Assembly: GCF_903064525.1 (NCBI RefSeq)
Contig: NZ_LR797830.1
Location: 248,001-312,000, forward strand
DNA from: Methylacidimicrobium sp. AP8
Lineage (GTDB): Bacteria; Verrucomicrobiota; Verrucomicrobiia; Methylacidiphilales; Methylacidiphilaceae
Direction of reading: 5' to 3'
Length of the DNA stretch: 64,000 bases
Notes under the pieces: generated by a model
What the model was told of the DNA's origin: nothing
Databases searched by the model: none
What the model saw: the letters and a program-made list of their open reading frames with translations, nothing else
Part shown: positions 42,384 to 50,436 of the stretch, piece after piece
Position numbering within the stretch: the first letter of the stretch is position 1
Layout: each line of letters starts with the position of its first letter
Translations under genes and position numbers: made by a program

Positions 42384-43478
42384 ATGGCGGCTTTCCGTGT
42401 CGGAATCCTCACCAGCGGCGGAGACTGCCCCGGGCTCAATGCGGTGATCCGCGCGGTGGTGGCCGCTTCCTCCCAGCGGGGCTGGGAGGTCTTCGGATTC
42501 ATCGACGGCTTCGAAGGCCTGCTCTCTCCCGTCCGTTATCGAATCCTCGAAGAGCCGGCAACCGTCGGGATTGCGAGGCTGGGCGGCACCATTCTTGGCA
42601 CGACCAACTGCGGGCGCTTCGCGACCCGGGTGGGCGTAGGCGAGGTCCGCCGGATCCCCAAAACGGTGATCGACGAGGTTTGGGAGACGGTGGAGGGGCT
42701 GCACATCGGCGGGCTGATCTGCATCGGCGGGGACGGTTCCCTGACGGCGGCTCAGCAGCTCTCCGAAGCGGGACTACCGATCGTCGGCGTGCCCAAGACG
42801 ATCGACAACGACATCTCGGCGACTTCGAGCTCCTTCGGGTTCTATTCCGCCGTCGAGTTCGTCACCCAGGCTCTCGATCGGTTGCGATCGACGGCGATGA
42901 GCCATCGCCGGGTCATGGTCGTGGAGGTGATGGGAAGATACGCCGGTTGGATCGCGCTCTTCGGCGGGCTGGCGGGCGGAGCCGACGTGATCCTCTTGCC
43001 CGAGATTCCTTTCCATTACGAAAAGATCGCCCATGAGGTGCGCAAGCGCGTGGCGGAAGGAGCGCTCCAGACGATGATCGTCGTCGCCGAAGGGGCCCGG
43101 CCGGCCGACGGACAACTGGTGACGCAAGAGGATGAGACGGAAAAGGGGCTTGCAGGCGAGATTCGGCTGGGCGGGATCGGCCGGCATGTCGCCGGCATGA
43201 TCCAGCGATTGACCGGTCGGGAGAGTCGGGAGGTGGTGTTAGGCCAGCTTCAGCGTGGAGGACCGCCCACGGCCCTCGACCGGAATCTCGGGATGCTGTT
43301 CGGAGTCGCCGCCGTGCGGTTGGTGGAGGAGAGGCGCTTCGGAGAAATGGTGTCCTTTTGCAACGAGCGTGTGGGATCGGTTCCGATTCGGGAAGCGGTT
43401 CGTCAGACCAAGACCGTGCCTCCCGACTGCGAAGAGCTTGCCGCCGCCCGCGCGATCGGCATCGCCTTCGGGGATTGA
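42384..43478 (+). CDS. 6-phosphofructokinase (ATP- or PPi-dependent)
   Basis: 364 residues. GILTSGGDCPGLNAVIR at the N-terminus, GGDGS at 115-119, PKTIDNDI at 137-144 and MGRYAGWIALFGG. In this family Gly in GGDGS with Gly before TIDND marks ATP users and Asp with Lys marks PPi users; here the pair is Gly with Lys, an intermediate combination seen in group III enzymes, so the phosphoryl donor is uncertain. Confidence 0.9.
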   Translation: MAAFRVGILTSGGDCPGLNAVIRAVVAASSQRGWEVFGFIDGFEGLLSPVRYRILEEPATVGIARLGGTILGTTNCGRFATRVGVGEVRRIPKTVIDEVWETVEGLHIGGLICIGGDGSLTAAQQLSEAGLPIVGVPKTIDNDISATSSSFGFYSAVEFVTQALDRLRSTAMSHRRVMVVEVMGRYAGWIALFGGLAGGADVILLPEIPFHYEKIAHEVRKRVAEGALQTMIVVAEGARPADGQLVTQEDETEKGLAGEIRLGGIGRHVAGMIQRLTGRESREVVLGQLQRGGPPTALDRNLGMLFGVAAVRLVEERRFGEMVSFCNERVGSVPIREAVRQTKTVPPDCEELAAARAIGIAFGD

Positions 43479-43583: not shown

Positions 43584-44144
43584 TCACCAGAAGGTCAACG
43601 GGGGCATCAACGTCCAGCCCATGCCCCAATCCATCCCGGGATAGCCCCAGCCCCACTCCACGCGGGGATCGTCCCAGTGGTTGCTCACAACGTGTTCCCG
43701 CCACAAGTGGATCTTCGTCGCGGCGATCAGAGGATAATTGTACCGTCTTTCGCCGATCCGCCCCGGCTGGGAGCCGACGATGCGCCCGACGACCGTGATT
43801 TCCCGGCCCCTTCTATAGACGTTGAGGTCGAGCAGCGAGGGGGTGCCGACGATAAACCGGCCGCCGGTCTTGTCGGAAGGGACGGGCCGGTCGTAGGGGT
43901 TCAGGTCATGCTCAAGCACCTCCAGGTAGGTGCACTGCTTGCGATGCTTCCCGTAGAGGATCCTTCCGCCCAACATCACCGTATGTTGGCGGTAGCGTGA
44001 AGGAGCGCTTCGAATGGCTGCAAAGGAGGGTTGATTCTGGACCTCCTTCTTGACCTCTTTCGGAAAGGGGCTGCAGGCGGCCAGGAGCAGGGTGAGAGCG
44101 AGGCAGGCTAGGAAACTTCTGCGACTGGACAGAACCGGATTCAT
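43584..44144 (-). CDS. Slp-family outer-membrane lipoprotein, third tandem copy
   Basis: 186 residues from ATG 44144. Lipobox LLAAC, then the Slp pattern QPSFAAIRSAPSRYRQHTVMLGGRI, LEVLEHDLNPYDRPV, GGRFIV and YRRGREITVVGRIVG. The C-terminus is rich in Trp, Gly, Met and Pro (YPGMDWGMGW). Part of a three-gene tandem array with 44323-44889 and 44907-45485. Confidence 0.88.
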   Translation of the reverse strand: MNPVLSSRRSFLACLALTLLLAACSPFPKEVKKEVQNQPSFAAIRSAPSRYRQHTVMLGGRILYGKHRKQCTYLEVLEHDLNPYDRPVPSDKTGGRFIVGTPSLLDLNVYRRGREITVVGRIVGSQPGRIGERRYNYPLIAATKIHLWREHVVSNHWDDPRVEWGWGYPGMDWGMGWTLMPPLTFW

Positions 44145-44322
44145 CGAGTGGGACCCCGGAACCATCCCTTGGCTTGCTACGCGAGGCTAAGCGCGTTTCG
44201 CCATTACAAATTAGCACGGTCGGCGACGATTCTCCAACACTCTGCAGGAGTTCGCTGGGTCCGTCTCCCCTTGCGCCGGCGAAAGCGGGGATCGAGAGAA
44301 GCGCTAAACGCAGGCGGGCGGA

Positions 44323-44889
44323 TCACCACCACCAAGGGCCGAAGCCCCATCCCATGCCTAATCCCATGCCGGGATAGCCCCAGCCCCATCCCATGCCGGG
44401 ATAGCCCCAGTAAGCGTTGTTCGTCGCGTACTCGGGCCACAAGTGGATGTGCGTCGCAGCCACCACCGGGTAAGTATAGGGCTTTTCGCCGATCACCCCC
44501 CGCTGGGGTGTGGTGAGGCGCCCGACGACCGTGATATCTCGACCTTTGCTGTAGACGGAAGGATCCAAGAAGGTGGAGGTCCGGACGAGGAAACGGCCCC
44601 CGATCTTGTCGGAGTCGATCGGTTGATCGGAGCTGTCGAGCTTTTCTTGGAGCACCTCGAGGATGGTGACGTCCTTAAGGTTCTTAATCTGGGCGATCGT
44701 GCCCCCGAGCATTACCATCCGACCCCGGTAGGCGTAAGGGTTGTTGCGGATCGCGGCGAAGGACGGCTGCCCCTGCACCTGCTTTTTGATTTCGCTGGAA
44801 AACGGGCTGCAGCCGGATAGGAGCGCCGCAGCAAGAACCAAGCGAGGAATAGAAAACCACCGAGATCCCGAAAGAGCGGATCCGTGCAA
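44323..44889 (-). CDS. Slp-family outer-membrane lipoprotein, second tandem copy
   Basis: 188 residues from a TTG at 44889, chosen because AAGGAGG lies exactly 6 nt upstream; ATG codons further up lie inside the neighbouring gene. Lipobox LLSGC, then QPSFAAIRNNPYAYRGRMVMLGG, LEVLQEKLDSSDQPI and SKGRDITVVGRL. The tail ends GWGYPGMGLGMGWGFGPWWW, the most aromatic of the three. A 17-bp gap separates it from the first copy. Confidence 0.88.
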   Translation of the reverse strand: MHGSALSGSRWFSIPRLVLAAALLSGCSPFSSEIKKQVQGQPSFAAIRNNPYAYRGRMVMLGGTIAQIKNLKDVTILEVLQEKLDSSDQPIDSDKIGGRFLVRTSTFLDPSVYSKGRDITVVGRLTTPQRGVIGEKPYTYPVVAATHIHLWPEYATNNAYWGYPGMGWGWGYPGMGLGMGWGFGPWWW

Positions 44890-44906
44890 GCTGATCCTCC
44901 TTGTGC

Positions 44907-45485
44907 TCACCACATGCCGAAGCCGGGCATTCCGAAACCCGGGAAGAAGCCCATTCCCGGCCCCCACATGCCCGGCTCATATCCCCAGTTCATCATCGCC
45001 CAGTCGTAGTCCGCACCCGCTGTGCTCTCCGGCTGCCAGAGGTGGATCTGGGAAATCGAAATCACGGGGTAGGAGTAGCTCCTCTTGCCGATGGTTCCCG
45101 GTTGCACCCCGCTGACGCGTCCGGCGACGGTCACCTCGCGGCCGCGCTTGTAGATCGATGGATCGAGGAACTTGGCCGTAACCGCGAGAAAGCGTCCGCC
45201 CGATTGGTTCGTCGACAACGGCCGTTGGTCGCCTCCGAGAGGCCTTTGGACGATCTCCAGCACCGTCGAGTTCTTCCGATTCTGAATTTGCACGATTTTG
45301 CCGCCGAGAATCACAAGCCGGCCCCGGTAGGCGGTAGGATCTTGACGGAGAGCGCCGAAGGAGGGCTGGTCCTTGGCGGCCTCCACGGTGGATTCGGGAA
45401 AAGGACCGCCGCAGCCCGTGAGGGTCGCGAGGAGGAGAGTTGCCATGATCGACGCGAAAAGGAAACGCATGCGCTCACAGCTCAT
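44907..45485 (-). CDS. Slp-family outer-membrane lipoprotein, first tandem copy
   Basis: 192 residues. Lipobox LTGC at ~residue 25, then QPSFGALRQDPTAYRGRLVILGGKI, LEIVQRPLGGDQRPL, GGRFLAV and YKRGREVTVAGRVSGV. The tail is Gly/Met/Phe/Trp-rich (EPGMWGPGMGFFPGFGMPG). In E. coli, Slp is a carbon-starvation and acid-related lipoprotein. ATG 45470 is an alternative start. Confidence 0.88.
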   Translation of the reverse strand: MSCERMRFLFASIMATLLLATLTGCGGPFPESTVEAAKDQPSFGALRQDPTAYRGRLVILGGKIVQIQNRKNSTVLEIVQRPLGGDQRPLSTNQSGGRFLAVTAKFLDPSIYKRGREVTVAGRVSGVQPGTIGKRSYSYPVISISQIHLWQPESTAGADYDWAMMNWGYEPGMWGPGMGFFPGFGMPGFGMW

Positions 45486-45667: not shown

Positions 45668-46318
45668 ATGGATAGAGAACGCTGGATCGGCCTGTCGGCC
45701 TCCGTGGCGCTGCACCTGGCCATTCTGCTGGGATCCGGCGCGTGGATCGTCAAGCGCGCCGAGTACGGGATGGCTCCGGGGCGGAACTCGGTCGCCGTCG
45801 ACCTGGTAGAGGGAGCATCGGAACCCGAAGCTGCGGCGCAACCGCTTCCGCAGCCCGAACCGGCTACTCGGCCGCAGCCCGGGGAGATGACGGAGGCGGT
45901 TGAGCGGACGCCCCCGCTCCGGCCCGAGGTCTCCCGGGAGGCGCCGAAGCCCTCTCCGAAGCCGCATCCGGTCGCGATCCGGGGGAAGGGCGCTTCGGGG
46001 GCTGGGCGGGACGCGCTTACCTTGAGGCGCGCCAGCGGCACTACCAGCGCCCAGCCCGATTACCTGAACAATCCGCCTCCCCCCTATCCCGAAGAGTGCC
46101 GCTGCCGCGGCGAGCAGGGAACGGTCGTGCTGAAGGTGCTCGTCTCTCCTCGCGGAACGGCGCAATCGGTCGCGCTGATCCGAAGCTCGGGGTTCGGTCC
46201 GCTCGATCGCGCCGCGCTCGATGCGGTCCGGAAATGGCGCTTCCGGCCGGCAACCGTCGGCGGCATGCCCGTCGAGTCGTACGTCGTCGTCCCGATTCGC
46301 TTTGTGCTCGAAGGCTAA
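45668..46318 (+). CDS. tonB: TonB-like energy transducer
   Basis: 216 residues from ATG 45668. N-terminal TM helix (ASVALHLAILLGSGAWIV), a Pro/Glu-rich periplasm-spanning segment, and the C-terminal TonB domain with PPPPYPEECRCRGEQGTVVLKVLVSPRG, DRAALDAVRKWRFRPA and VVVPIRFVLE. ExbB/ExbD genes are not nearby. Confidence 0.92.
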   Translation: MDRERWIGLSASVALHLAILLGSGAWIVKRAEYGMAPGRNSVAVDLVEGASEPEAAAQPLPQPEPATRPQPGEMTEAVERTPPLRPEVSREAPKPSPKPHPVAIRGKGASGAGRDALTLRRASGTTSAQPDYLNNPPPPYPEECRCRGEQGTVVLKVLVSPRGTAQSVALIRSSGFGPLDRAALDAVRKWRFRPATVGGMPVESYVVVPIRFVLEG

Positions 46319-46343: not shown

Positions 46344-47120
46344 TTATGTTCTGACCTGGATGTCCTGGTAGGCGGCCCACCCGATCAGGGTGAAGGGAAC
46401 GGATTGGACGGCGAAGAAGAGCAGCAAAAGGATCAGCCGTAGCCGGGGAACGAGCTTCGGGGTCTGCTGGTCGAGTTCCTGCTTGATGTAGTCGGCGACG
46501 ATGGCGACGGCCCGCGAGTCGGGATAGATCACGGGCGGTGCGGCGCTCAGGTATTGCTGCACGTCCTGGGAGACCGCCTCTTCGGCTTCCGTGATCCGGA
46601 CGGAGAGCATCCAGCTGAGGAACGGATGCATCCGCTGGAAGTTTTGGGCGGCGCTCTTCGCATAGATCTTGGCGATCGTGAACTTCGTATTGGGGCTGGT
46701 CAACGGGATGGTCGGGCCGCCGCTCTGATCCTGCCAGAGCGAGGGGTCGTGGGGCTCCTGGCCCAGCTGCCAGACGGTCTTCCGGGCATCTTGGAAGGTG
46801 GCGTGCTTCCATCCTTCGTTGCTCTGGAGCGAGGCCGCCCAGCGGTCAACGAACCCTTCTCCGGCGGCCTTGGCATGGCTCAGGGCGAAAAACAGCAGCG
46901 CGCCCACGAAGGTCGCCAGGGCGGCGATGCCGCAAAAGAGATGGTGGATCGGGTTGGCGTGAAAAAGCAGATTCCAGAGCTTGGTGTAATTGCTGGCCAG
47001 CCACCAGCAGCCGCCGGCGAGGAGAGCGGCGGCCACCCCAGTCAGCACGAACTGTCCCGTTGCTTCGACGAGGAAAAGAAGGATGCAGGCGCCGGTGACG
47101 GCGATCAGGTCTCCGAGCAT
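46344..47120 (-). CDS. membrane protein beside the tubulin-like system; paralogue of 10911-11684
   Basis: 258 residues from ATG 47120 (MLGDLIAVTGACILLF). Two N-terminal hydrophobic segments around an LWN motif at ~residue 49, a third segment ALATFVGALLFFALSH, a ~130-residue soluble part, and a final helix ending TLIGWAAYQDIQVRT. The layout is the same as in the protein at 10911-11684. It is divergently transcribed from the tubulin-like gene across a 313-bp region, which suggests joint control. No known motif. Confidence 0.7.
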   Translation of the reverse strand: MLGDLIAVTGACILLFLVEATGQFVLTGVAAALLAGGCWWLASNYTKLWNLLFHANPIHHLFCGIAALATFVGALLFFALSHAKAAGEGFVDRWAASLQSNEGWKHATFQDARKTVWQLGQEPHDPSLWQDQSGGPTIPLTSPNTKFTIAKIYAKSAAQNFQRMHPFLSWMLSVRITEAEEAVSQDVQQYLSAAPPVIYPDSRAVAIVADYIKQELDQQTPKLVPRLRLILLLLFFAVQSVPFTLIGWAAYQDIQVRT

Positions 47121-47433
47121 AAGACAGCTTTTAGGGTGTAAGAAAGGAGAGGGGCGAGTCAAGACGCCGGGCGCCCGGCCGATGGGTTCCCGGCGGTTCT
47201 CGTCCGAAGGGCTTGCCGGAAGGGGGAAGTTCGCAAGGCTTCCGAGCAAAAGGGATTGCTTTTTTTTCCCGCGCGGGTAATCCGATTCGAAGATATCCCT
47301 CGACCGCAGCTGATTTTGGTCCCGCGAAAGAATTTTCTCCCACGGCCCGGCAGAAGAACCGATCGGCGAAGCAAGAGGCGGGGGATAGGCCGGGCGATGG
47401 GGATCAGGGCAGGATGCTAGGCGAATCGGATGC
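47121..47433. other. divergent intergenic region upstream of the tubulin-like gene
   Basis: 313 bp without a coding sequence I can support. It presumably carries divergent promoters for the membrane-protein and tubulin-like genes. A T8 tract at about 47259-47266 is not preceded by a convincing stem. No repeat copy and no clear -35/-10 pair were found. Confidence 0.4.
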
Positions 47434-50400
47434 ATGAATCCTAACCACATGATCATCGGCCTGGGGGGGACAGGAGGCAAAATCATCCGGGCCTTCCGAA
47501 AGACCATCTACCAGGAATTCCGAAGCTTGAGTCCCAAGGAGATAAGCCTCGGATACCTCTACGTCGATTCGAGCGACGAGCTGATGCATCTTGACGATCC
47601 CACCTGGAAGATCCTGGGGCAGAGCGTGCAGCTGGGGCCGAACAGCCAGCTGCACATTCGGTGCGCCAATCTCTCCGCCATCCTGGAAAATCTGACCAAC
47701 TATCCGGGCATCCGCCCTTGGATCGGAGATCGTGCGATTTGGAACGACATTTTGGGCGGAATCGTCGGCGACGCGATCGGCGGACAGAAGCGGAGGCTCG
47801 GCCGGTTTCTCTTCGCCAATCATGCGACCGAGTTTCGCAACCGGCTGACCGCTCAGGTGCGCGAGCTGCAACAGGGCGGGGAGGCCAGCGTGACCTTCCA
47901 CGTCTGTGCCGGCCTGGCGGGAGGGACCGGGAGCGGTACGATCATCGACGCCTTTTGCCAGATCCGGCGTCTCTATCCCGACTCCTTGCAATATCGCATC
48001 ATCGGATACCTTCTCCTTCCGGAGGAACATCCGAAGCCCAACTGGAACACCGGCAACTACCATGCCAACGGCTATGCGGCGCTGGCGGAGCTCAACGCGC
48101 TGAGCGTCGGAAAGTTCTTCCCCTGCGACATCGCGGGGGACGGCAGCCGGATGACCGACTTGCAGACGCCCTTTAACGGCGCCTATCTCTTCAGCACGCA
48201 CAACGAGAACGGGCTTGCTCTCAGCGTGGACGACATCCCGAACGTGGTCGCGGATTTTCTCTATCAGAAGATCGTCACGGTGCGGAAGGTGAACTGGGCG
48301 AACCTAGCCAGGCAGGAGAACGCGGAAAACGGAGACGGGATGCCGGAAACGATCCCTGGGACCAACATCGGGGTTCGGTCCAAAAGATGGCTCACCTTCG
48401 GGGTGAAGAGGATTGCCGTGCCGGAGGAGGAGATTGCGGAATATCTCGCCTACCAGTTCGCCCGGCAGGCGGCCCTGCAGCTCCGCTACAACAACTGGTC
48501 GGAGACCGAGGGCTACCTGCCCAACGCCAAGAACGTCGATCTGATGAGCTACGCGACCGCTCCGGAGCAGCTCGAGCGGTGGCTGATCTCCGACGAGCAC
48601 CTGATTTTGTCGGCGCCCGTCCTGGAGGCGGACGGGACGCAGGGGCGTTGGCAGCCGATCACCCGGTACTGGACGACCGTTGTCGGGGCTTTCAAGCAGG
48701 AGATCCAGGAGAGGGAGGACGGAGCCAAGTGGCTCGACAGCCTCAAGGGAAGGCTGGAAATCCGTTTCAGCGACCAGTACCGCGGTCACGGTGTCAAGGC
48801 CTTTTATCAGACCGTATCGGCCTCGGCCCGGGAGCGGGCGCGGGAGATCCGGCAGAAGCTCGAGAGAGAGTTGTTCGGCAACTGGCGGGACGGGGTCCGG
48901 TCCGTTCATGAGATCGGCGCGCTCGTGGGCGCCGTGATCAGCTATCTGCGCGCCCGCTTCGAACGCTTCGATGACGACTTGTCCAAAGCGAAATCGCAGG
49001 AGGAGAGTCTTGCCAAGAAGCTCAAGGAGCAAGAGAAGGAATGGGTTAAGGTCGGGGTCATCTCCGACATGTTCGGGAAACGGAAGCGGATTTTCGACGC
49101 CTGTGCCCTGACCCTCCAAGACCTCTACGCCTGCCGGACGCGCATCGAAGGTTGGCAGTTCGCCAAGAAATTCGCTCCGGTGCTCATCGAGGAGATGACC
49201 CAATTGAAAGCCGAGCTCGACCGGAGCTCCGCGATGATCGCGGAGGCGCTCAAGAGCTTCGAGGAGCAGATTGCCGAACGCTGCGTCGATGAAGGCGGAG
49301 CGGTCGATTATCGGCAGCAGGTCATCCGGTTCTACGATCCGGATCTGGTCCGGACGGTGACGCGCAGGCTAATGAAGGATGCCAGGGAGCAGCTCACCCA
49401 GACGCAGCGGGTCCGGTCCGCTCTGGTCGGCATGTTGGGCGACAAGCTCGATTTCCGCACGTTCAATGAACGGATCAACCGGACGACCTTCCTGGACGTG
49501 CTCGCCAGCCAGTGCATGGAGAACGCGAAGATCGCCCACAATAATCTAATCGAAAGCACCAAGGAGAAGCTGATCGGTGTGAGCATCATCGATAAGCTGC
49601 GCGACCGCTATGGGGATCGGCAGTCCCTCCGCCTCTTCGTGGATGGAATCGTCAAAGCGGCCGGCAACTACTTGATTTTCAACCCGGACGAAATCAAGCG
49701 ATCGGCGCCGGGAATCAATCCGGGGGCGCAAATCTGCGTCTCGACCTTCACGGTGATCCTCCCCAAGGCGCCGGAAGCGGAAGATTTCGTCAAGATGCTG
49801 CGCGAGGTCTTTTGGGAGTGCGTGCAGACGACGGCGCGCGATTTCCTGGAGGGGAGCCGACCCAACGAGATCATCCTGGCCAGCGTCACCAATCTTTTCC
49901 CGCTGCGCGTGGTCCAGCTGCTCTCCTTTCTGCGGGCTCGGTATCTGGAACGGGTCAACGGCCCCAACCCGGCCCGCGCCCGGATGGAAATCCATATCGA
50001 GGATGACGGGCAGTCTCTTCCGAGCCTTTTCCTGCCGAGCCGGAGCGAGCTCCAGGATCGGATCGCTCCCTATCTGCTCCTCGGCAAGGCCTTGGGATTG
50101 ATCGCCGGCCGGGAGAACGAACGAGGGGCTCAGGAGCTGGCCATGCTCACCAAGGACGAGTTCGGCATCGAGACGCCGATCTTCCTGGAAGGAGCGACGA
50201 TCCCCGAAATCCTGGCCAATCTCCCTGAGTCGAAAGCCTTGACCCTGGAGGAAGCGGTAGCCAAGCACCTTGAGGATCCCCAGGTGCGCCGGGATCCGAA
50301 TCGCACCGAGACGACACAGAAGCTAGTCGCCATGGTCAACGAGTTCTCGCGTCAGCTCCCTCTTTCGGATCCTCAGGCCAAGCTTTTCCCGGAATGGGGC

Positions 50401-50436
50401 CGGCGGGCGATCAAGCTGCTCCGCGGGGAGGGATAG
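47434..50436 (+). CDS. tubulin/FtsZ-superfamily large protein (Tubulin_2-like)
   Basis: 1000 residues. The N-terminal GTPase domain has MIIGLGGTGGKIIRAF (glycine-rich nucleotide loop, 6-21) and the tubulin signature CAGLAGGTGSGT (~158-169), followed by FLYQKIV-type helices. A long helical middle (about 440-720) includes Lys/Glu-rich coiled coil (KSQEESLAKKLKEQEKEW). The rest is alpha/beta without a recognised motif. No TM helix or signal peptide, so it is cytoplasmic. The family was noted by Makarova and Koonin (2010) as the core of a predicted membrane-remodelling system with OmpA-family and von Willebrand A proteins. The next gene, 4 bp away, is an OmpA-domain protein, in keeping with that. 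Polymerisation is untested. Confidence 0.88.
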   Translation: MNPNHMIIGLGGTGGKIIRAFRKTIYQEFRSLSPKEISLGYLYVDSSDELMHLDDPTWKILGQSVQLGPNSQLHIRCANLSAILENLTNYPGIRPWIGDRAIWNDILGGIVGDAIGGQKRRLGRFLFANHATEFRNRLTAQVRELQQGGEASVTFHVCAGLAGGTGSGTIIDAFCQIRRLYPDSLQYRIIGYLLLPEEHPKPNWNTGNYHANGYAALAELNALSVGKFFPCDIAGDGSRMTDLQTPFNGAYLFSTHNENGLALSVDDIPNVVADFLYQKIVTVRKVNWANLARQENAENGDGMPETIPGTNIGVRSKRWLTFGVKRIAVPEEEIAEYLAYQFARQAALQLRYNNWSETEGYLPNAKNVDLMSYATAPEQLERWLISDEHLILSAPVLEADGTQGRWQPITRYWTTVVGAFKQEIQEREDGAKWLDSLKGRLEIRFSDQYRGHGVKAFYQTVSASARERAREIRQKLERELFGNWRDGVRSVHEIGALVGAVISYLRARFERFDDDLSKAKSQEESLAKKLKEQEKEWVKVGVISDMFGKRKRIFDACALTLQDLYACRTRIEGWQFAKKFAPVLIEEMTQLKAELDRSSAMIAEALKSFEEQIAERCVDEGGAVDYRQQVIRFYDPDLVRTVTRRLMKDAREQLTQTQRVRSALVGMLGDKLDFRTFNERINRTTFLDVLASQCMENAKIAHNNLIESTKEKLIGVSIIDKLRDRYGDRQSLRLFVDGIVKAAGNYLIFNPDEIKRSAPGINPGAQICVSTFTVILPKAPEAEDFVKMLREVFWECVQTTARDFLEGSRPNEIILASVTNLFPLRVVQLLSFLRARYLERVNGPNPARARMEIHIEDDGQSLPSLFLPSRSELQDRIAPYLLLGKALGLIAGRENERGAQELAMLTKDEFGIETPIFLEGATIPEILANLPESKALTLEEAVAKHLEDPQVRRDPNRTETTQKLVAMVNEFSRQLPLSDPQAKLFPEWGRRAIKLLRGEG

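Follow-up and report, generated by a model that had tools for sequence, protein, structure and literature searches.

The stretch of DNA analysed here (the window, 64,000 nucleotides of the genome of Methylacidimicrobium sp. AP8) carries on its minus strand, at 43584-45485, a tandem of three slp genes that are transcribed in the order w3, w2, w1 (Table 1). The start of w2 is a TTG codon at 44889 with AGGAGG ahead of it, 17 bases past the stop codon of w3, and an alternative ATG start for w1 is present at 44165. Adjacency of tonB and the array was seen in all 10 genomes of the window's genus and its sister genus (the window and nine others) whose sequence reaches that far, two contigs that end short of tonB having been left out of the count. 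The divergent arrangement of tonB and the slp array in both genera suggests shared regulation. No sigma-70-like promoter or terminator-like site was found in the array region, and an Rfam search of this region gave no match at the gathering score.

Table 1. Positions, in the window, of the slp genes, the genes that flank them and the C-terminal tails of the encoded proteins
Feature	Position	Strand	Description
slp copy w3	44907..45485	-	First transcribed; lipobox LTGC-G; lipid Cys 45413-45411
slp copy w2	44323..44889	-	Lipobox LSGC-S; lipid Cys 44811-44809
slp copy w1	43584..44144	-	Lipobox LAAC-S; lipid Cys 44075-44073
TonB C-terminal domain protein	45668..46318	+	Divergent from the slp array; neighbour in both genera
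Phosphofructokinase gene	42384..43478	+	Convergent with the slp array; the other boundary conserved within the genus
w3 tail	44910..45035	-	42 aa: 10 G, 6 M, 5 P, 4 W, 4 F, 2 Y, no H, no C
w2 tail	44326..44436	-	37 aa: 11 G, 7 W, 4 Y, 4 P, 3 M, no H, no C; predicted disordered
w1 tail	43587..43700	-	38 aa: 6 W, 5 G, 4 P, 3 M, 2 H, no C

In five of the seven genomes of the window's genus, the array includes a fourth tandem copy (w4), placed between w1 and the phosphofructokinase gene; this copy is missing from the window genome (43479-43584) and from genome G004, and in G003 it is broken by an in-frame TAG. The gap between w2 and w1 is ∼1.9 kb in G002 (L038 1383-3261), compared with <0.5 kb in the other genomes, and may reflect an insertion. 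Elsewhere in the window, a 387-aa ORF without a Pfam match (46344-47507, minus strand) is divergent from a gene at 47434-50436 whose 1000-aa product contains a Tubulin_2 domain (PF13809).

Family membership, lipobox and distribution

Scores for w1, w2 and w3 were 135.8, 160.0 and 150.4 bits against PF03843 (Pfam gathering score 22.5), and 96.6, 98.4 and 97.8 bits against TIGR00752 (NCBIfam cut-off 88.45). The preliminary description of the locus as three tandem Slp-type lipoproteins was therefore borne out by the curated cut-offs of both models, and the Slp motifs and tails that it quoted are present in all three ORFs. It is near certain that w1, w2 and w3 are ordinary members of the Slp family of outer-membrane lipoproteins. 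Each translation has a lipobox with its Cys and no Asp at position +2. By the Lol rule, a lipoprotein without Asp at +2 is retained in the outer membrane, and retention of w1-w3 in this membrane would follow.

A simple lipobox pattern was matched by six of seven w1-like, all seven w2-like and all six w3-like proteins, as well as by nine of nine proteobacterial Slps; the seventh w1-like protein has VGVGC-S, which the pattern misses. A tail is present and a clear lipobox absent in two other groups of Slps (the L004-like and FFF groups), suggesting that the lipid anchor and the tail are only loosely coupled. The sister-genus group L050-L054 has tails of just 4 residues and lacks the Cys of the CxPF motif, both in 5/5 proteins, so that it has neither lipid anchor nor tail; the lipobox pattern scores one upstream Cys in one of the five.

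Six Slp genes were found in the window genome. In the order, Slp was present in 13 of 60 genomes, the window genome included, all of the same family and with 2-7 copies each, and in none of the other 47; two matches at contig edges (G003:C223 and G009:C45) were left out of the sequence set. Seven of 387 genomes sampled across the phylum have Slp, and six of these belong to the window's family. A genome of a third genus of the family (G008; L048 870-1923) encodes a pair of strongly divergent Slp relatives, one on each strand. A search of viral contigs for relatives of E. coli Slp and YeaY found none at the sensitivity used.

The expansion of Slp in acidophilic methanotrophic Verrucomicrobia, of which the window's genes are part, is already known, since it was published in 2008 and 2022 (PMC2474590; PMC9543262). 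The passages on Slp in these papers describe six paralogues with a possible role in acid in the genome of Methylacidiphilum infernorum (PMC2474590), five copies in Methylacidiphilum fumariolicum and up to seven in Methylacidimicrobium, with a lipobox in 55 of 79 Slps (PMC9543262). In the later account, Slp is absent from neutrophilic Verrucomicrobia and related to gammaproteobacterial Slp, and the verrucomicrobial genes were gained by horizontal transfer and then underwent rampant duplication (PMC9543262). Slp was proposed as a first line of acid defence in these works (PMC2474590; PMC9543262), and the mechanism of its role in acid is called unknown (PMC9543262; PMC7231039). Several slp copies are also described for Acidihalobacter and Leptospirillum (PMC9062700; PMC7231039). 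A limited literature search found no data on Slp expression for Methylacidiphilum.

Composition and conservation of the C-terminal tails

The tail was taken as the residues after the last core Trp, and was tabulated for 82 of 83 proteins, leaving out the N-terminal piece of the stop-broken copy in G003. Among the last 30 residues, 20 (w1), 28 (w2) and 27 (w3) are W, G, M, Y, F or P. The mean for the ORFs of the window was 7.8 and the highest count among the remaining ORFs was 14, with a baseline of 38 non-overlapping, ATG-started ORFs of at least 150 aa that includes w1 and w3. The unusual composition noticed at the outset thus holds and exceeds what is expected by chance.

Such tails had been described initially as not a usual part of Slp, and this was contradicted by a comparison that reached beyond the window's family. 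The sequence LWDYGYGAFWPEPGWGAPYY lies near the C-terminus of E. coli Slp, YeaY likewise has an aromatic-rich C-terminal segment, and similar tails are found in Slps of Hafnia, Salmonella, Klebsiella, Proteus, Aeromonas and Acidithiobacillus caldus, and in one other Slp of the Verrucomicrobiota. The aromatic-rich C-terminal segment, a trait delimited here in place of any published criterion, was present in w1-w3 and in 10/10 Slps outside the family, where W, Y and F make up 15-32% of the tail compared with a mean of 8.8% of the core in the same ten proteins. This set comprises only ten proteins: nine proteobacterial (two from E. coli K-12 and seven from plasmid-collection records, several of them chromosome-sized) and one from another Verrucomicrobiota genome. 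The TIGR00752 alignments also reach into the tails. This model (length 182, part of the tail included) was matched up to positions 173, 167 and 169 by w1, w2 and w3, with alignments ending at residues 185, 200 and 175 and thereby running beyond the last core Trp by 30, 23 and 25 residues. The aromatic tail therefore looks like a normal trait of the Slp family, and no peculiarity of the w1-w3 array.

Tail dN/dS was 0.15, 0.11 and 0.10 for w1, w2 and w3 (core, 0.20, 0.08 and 0.10), and tail amino-acid identity 0.82, 0.85 and 0.84 (core, 0.77, 0.90 and 0.85), in comparisons spanning orthologues from seven, seven and six genomes, respectively. Over seven groups of the window's genus, tail dN/dS ranged from 0.09 to 0.18 and was equal to or lower than that of the core in six. 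The values are rough: they were obtained by simple Nei-Gojobori counting with gaps omitted from the alignments, and neither Trp nor Met codons offer a synonymous site. The calculation excluded the groups that lack a tail or are proteobacterial, together with the L005-like and L006-like proteins of the sister genus. Conservation orthologue by orthologue at low dN/dS indicates that the tails of w1-w3 are under selection.

In a tree of 80 of the 82 cores (two were too short; 133 columns, deep forks open, some labels set from the tails), a single change each accounts for w1, w3, w4 and most of the other tail groups. For w2, two changes are required in the best tree and just one in 57% of the bootstrap trees. 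Two are also required for the L006-like label, under which proteins of two genera are joined. The idea that each copy has a distinct, non-random tail thus stood up when related genomes were compared: tails are present and conserved in orthologues, rather than absent from all relatives or varying at random, and the tree separates the copies into groups of their own, w2 weakly.

The residues of the tail are not kept to the same extent. Trp identity was 1.00 in the w1 tail and 0.98 in the w2 tail, with Met at 0.65 and 0.79, and Met-Leu swaps were seen in both; swaps of this kind where 98-100% of Trp is kept point to hydrophobic rather than ligand chemistry. In the w3 tail, however, Met (0.87) is conserved better than Trp (0.78), with W/Y exchange that includes the last residue, and the same order was seen in the L004-like tail (Met 0.77, Trp 0.55), which counts against a purely aromatic reading.

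Predicted structure and possible roles of the tail

An AlphaFold2 model built from a shallow alignment of 19 proteins (the window and near relatives), without lipid, had a mean pLDDT of 79.2, with core blocks mostly near or >90 and tail residues 129-162 <50; a prediction from the single sequence (mean pLDDT 35.4) was discarded. The core of this model has five predicted strands of 6-16 residues; OB folds are closed barrels of five strands. Foldseek retrieved the OB folds of SSB and PriB at E ∼1e-4 (best 9.6e-5, TMq 0.36), with modest TM scores of 0.30-0.40 on a query length that includes the tail. VIA-align gave Z scores of 9.0-10.3 to anticodon-binding OB domains, OBodies, and MCM and CST chains, over 85-113 residues at an rmsd of 2.2-4.7, the top match having Z 10.3 and rmsd 3.1 with 97 residues aligned. 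Neither phmmer nor a profile search found a significant solved homologue in the PDB (best E 0.53 and 0.23). The Slp core (∼125 residues) is thus predicted to be OB-like and the tail to be disordered; this predicted likeness of fold says nothing about function.

We consider it about an even chance (roughly 0.5) that Slp consists of an OB domain anchored by lipid, with a disordered aromatic tail that provides a further contact, either to the outer membrane or to a partner. The lipid anchor and the flexible tail would then act as two contacts that hold the OB domain to the inner leaflet of the outer membrane or to its partners, with the Trp and Tyr residues of the tail seated in the membrane interface. 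Many copies with differing tails could provide both dose and diversity of partners in an envelope that faces low pH, and might thereby lower the entry of protons or organic acids. The only tail-less Slp group, L050-L054, which also lacks the CxPF Cys in 5/5 members, was counted in favour of an anchor combined with a tail.

Low-complexity tails rich in aromatic residues and Gly could just as well bind proteins or associate with one another. As a reading of its own, in which the tails are segments for contact with beta-barrel or periplasmic partners (for example those served by TonB) or for Slp-Slp assemblies, we regard this as rather unlikely. The predicted disorder of the tails and the constant proximity of tonB are consistent with it, as is their conservation within paralogues and divergence between them, which would be expected if each had its own partner. 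However, a partner protein was not identified, and the similar composition of the tails in the different copies fits one chemical role for all of them better than a specific partner for each.

Binding of Cu(I) or another soft metal by the Met-containing tails of the window's genus, an idea raised in the preliminary description, is weakly placed and appears improbable. Methanotrophs need copper, and the hosts are methanotrophs; at least 3 Met are present in 27 of 44 tails of this genus and an MxM or MxxM motif in 16 of the 44, and L004-like tails have MGMYGPMG-like repeats in which Met is conserved at 0.77. In Met-rich copper-binding proteins, Met is clustered, often together with His or Cys, and conserved across orthologues. 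In contrast, Met is absent from 14 of 21 sister-genus tails and only one of the 21 has at least 3, a number reached neither by the two tails of the third genus (G008) nor by any of the 10 outside the family. Cys is found in none of the 67 family tails of at least 15 residues, and 2 or more His in only six, so that copper binding as a general role of the tail is unlikely. The Met-Leu swaps of w1 and w2 also speak against it, and of the neighbouring genes inspected, none was recognised as a copper gene either by eye or by Pfam. Met enrichment is confined to some paralogues of the window's genus: its L005-like and L006-like paralogues have few or no tail Met, and the main Slp copy of the sister genus has a tail that is 46-47% aromatic without Met. 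A more elaborate proposal, that the tails of Methylacidimicrobium were recruited as paralogue-specific disordered Met/Trp modules, made of MGMYGPMG-like repeats in the L004-like copy, that buffer Cu(I) at the outer membrane together with the adjacent TonB system, seems to us highly improbable.

The distant Slp paralogue L004 (1366-2037) is encoded in the window's own genome (C1, match at 1772086-1772490) and has no clear lipobox. Its tail of MGMYGPMG/MGMFGPMG-like repeats is among the most Met-rich of all, and orthologues occur in five other genomes of the genus.

The last residue of the tail is W, Y or F in 66 of 72 Slps of the family (all but five w4 copies and one G008 protein), whereas just 3 of the 38 baseline ORFs of the window, w1 and w3 among them, end in this way. 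The terminal aromatic residue could hence be an outer-membrane beta-signal, the tail forming a strand that is recognised by BamA or threaded through a barrel. We find this very doubtful, because a beta-strand signal requires an alternation of residues that Pro and Gly interrupt here, and because the tail is predicted to be disordered; moreover, none of the 10 Slps outside the family, the proteobacterial ones included, ends in an aromatic residue. Neutral low-complexity drift would fit the length differences of a few repeat units seen among w3-like tails, L004-like tails and those of the sister genus, but was rejected, as it is contradicted by the tail dN/dS of 0.09-0.18 and by the presence of a tail in distant Slps.

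Comparison with known Slp proteins

Slp has been cited as an acid-resistance protein without a mechanism, and the present analysis gives it an anatomy: a lipid anchor, a predicted OB core and a conserved aromatic tail that is predicted to be disordered. The array is otherwise an ordinary and already published expansion of a gene family. The genes are the same as, or orthologues of, the multi-copy slp genes reported at 5-7 copies for M. infernorum and Methylacidimicrobium, and the tail, its selection and the fold described here are absent from the passages on Slp in those accounts (PMC2474590; PMC9543262). A limited search of the literature on the Slp tail or fold likewise found no description of a conserved, paralogue-specific tail. 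Multiple slp genes are shared with the extreme acidophiles Acidihalobacter and Leptospirillum, which belong to other phyla, as far as the passages on these genes go (PMC9062700; PMC7231039).

With the Slp family as a whole (PF03843/TIGR00752), including E. coli Slp and YeaY, the proteins have in common the lipobox, the core and an aromatic and Gly-rich C-terminal segment. Unlike the two Slps taken from E. coli K-12, Slp and YeaY, which continue for 13 residues past their last aromatic residue, most copies of the window's family end at an aromatic residue; Met has been added in some copies of the window's genus, and the family carries 2-7 copies per genome.
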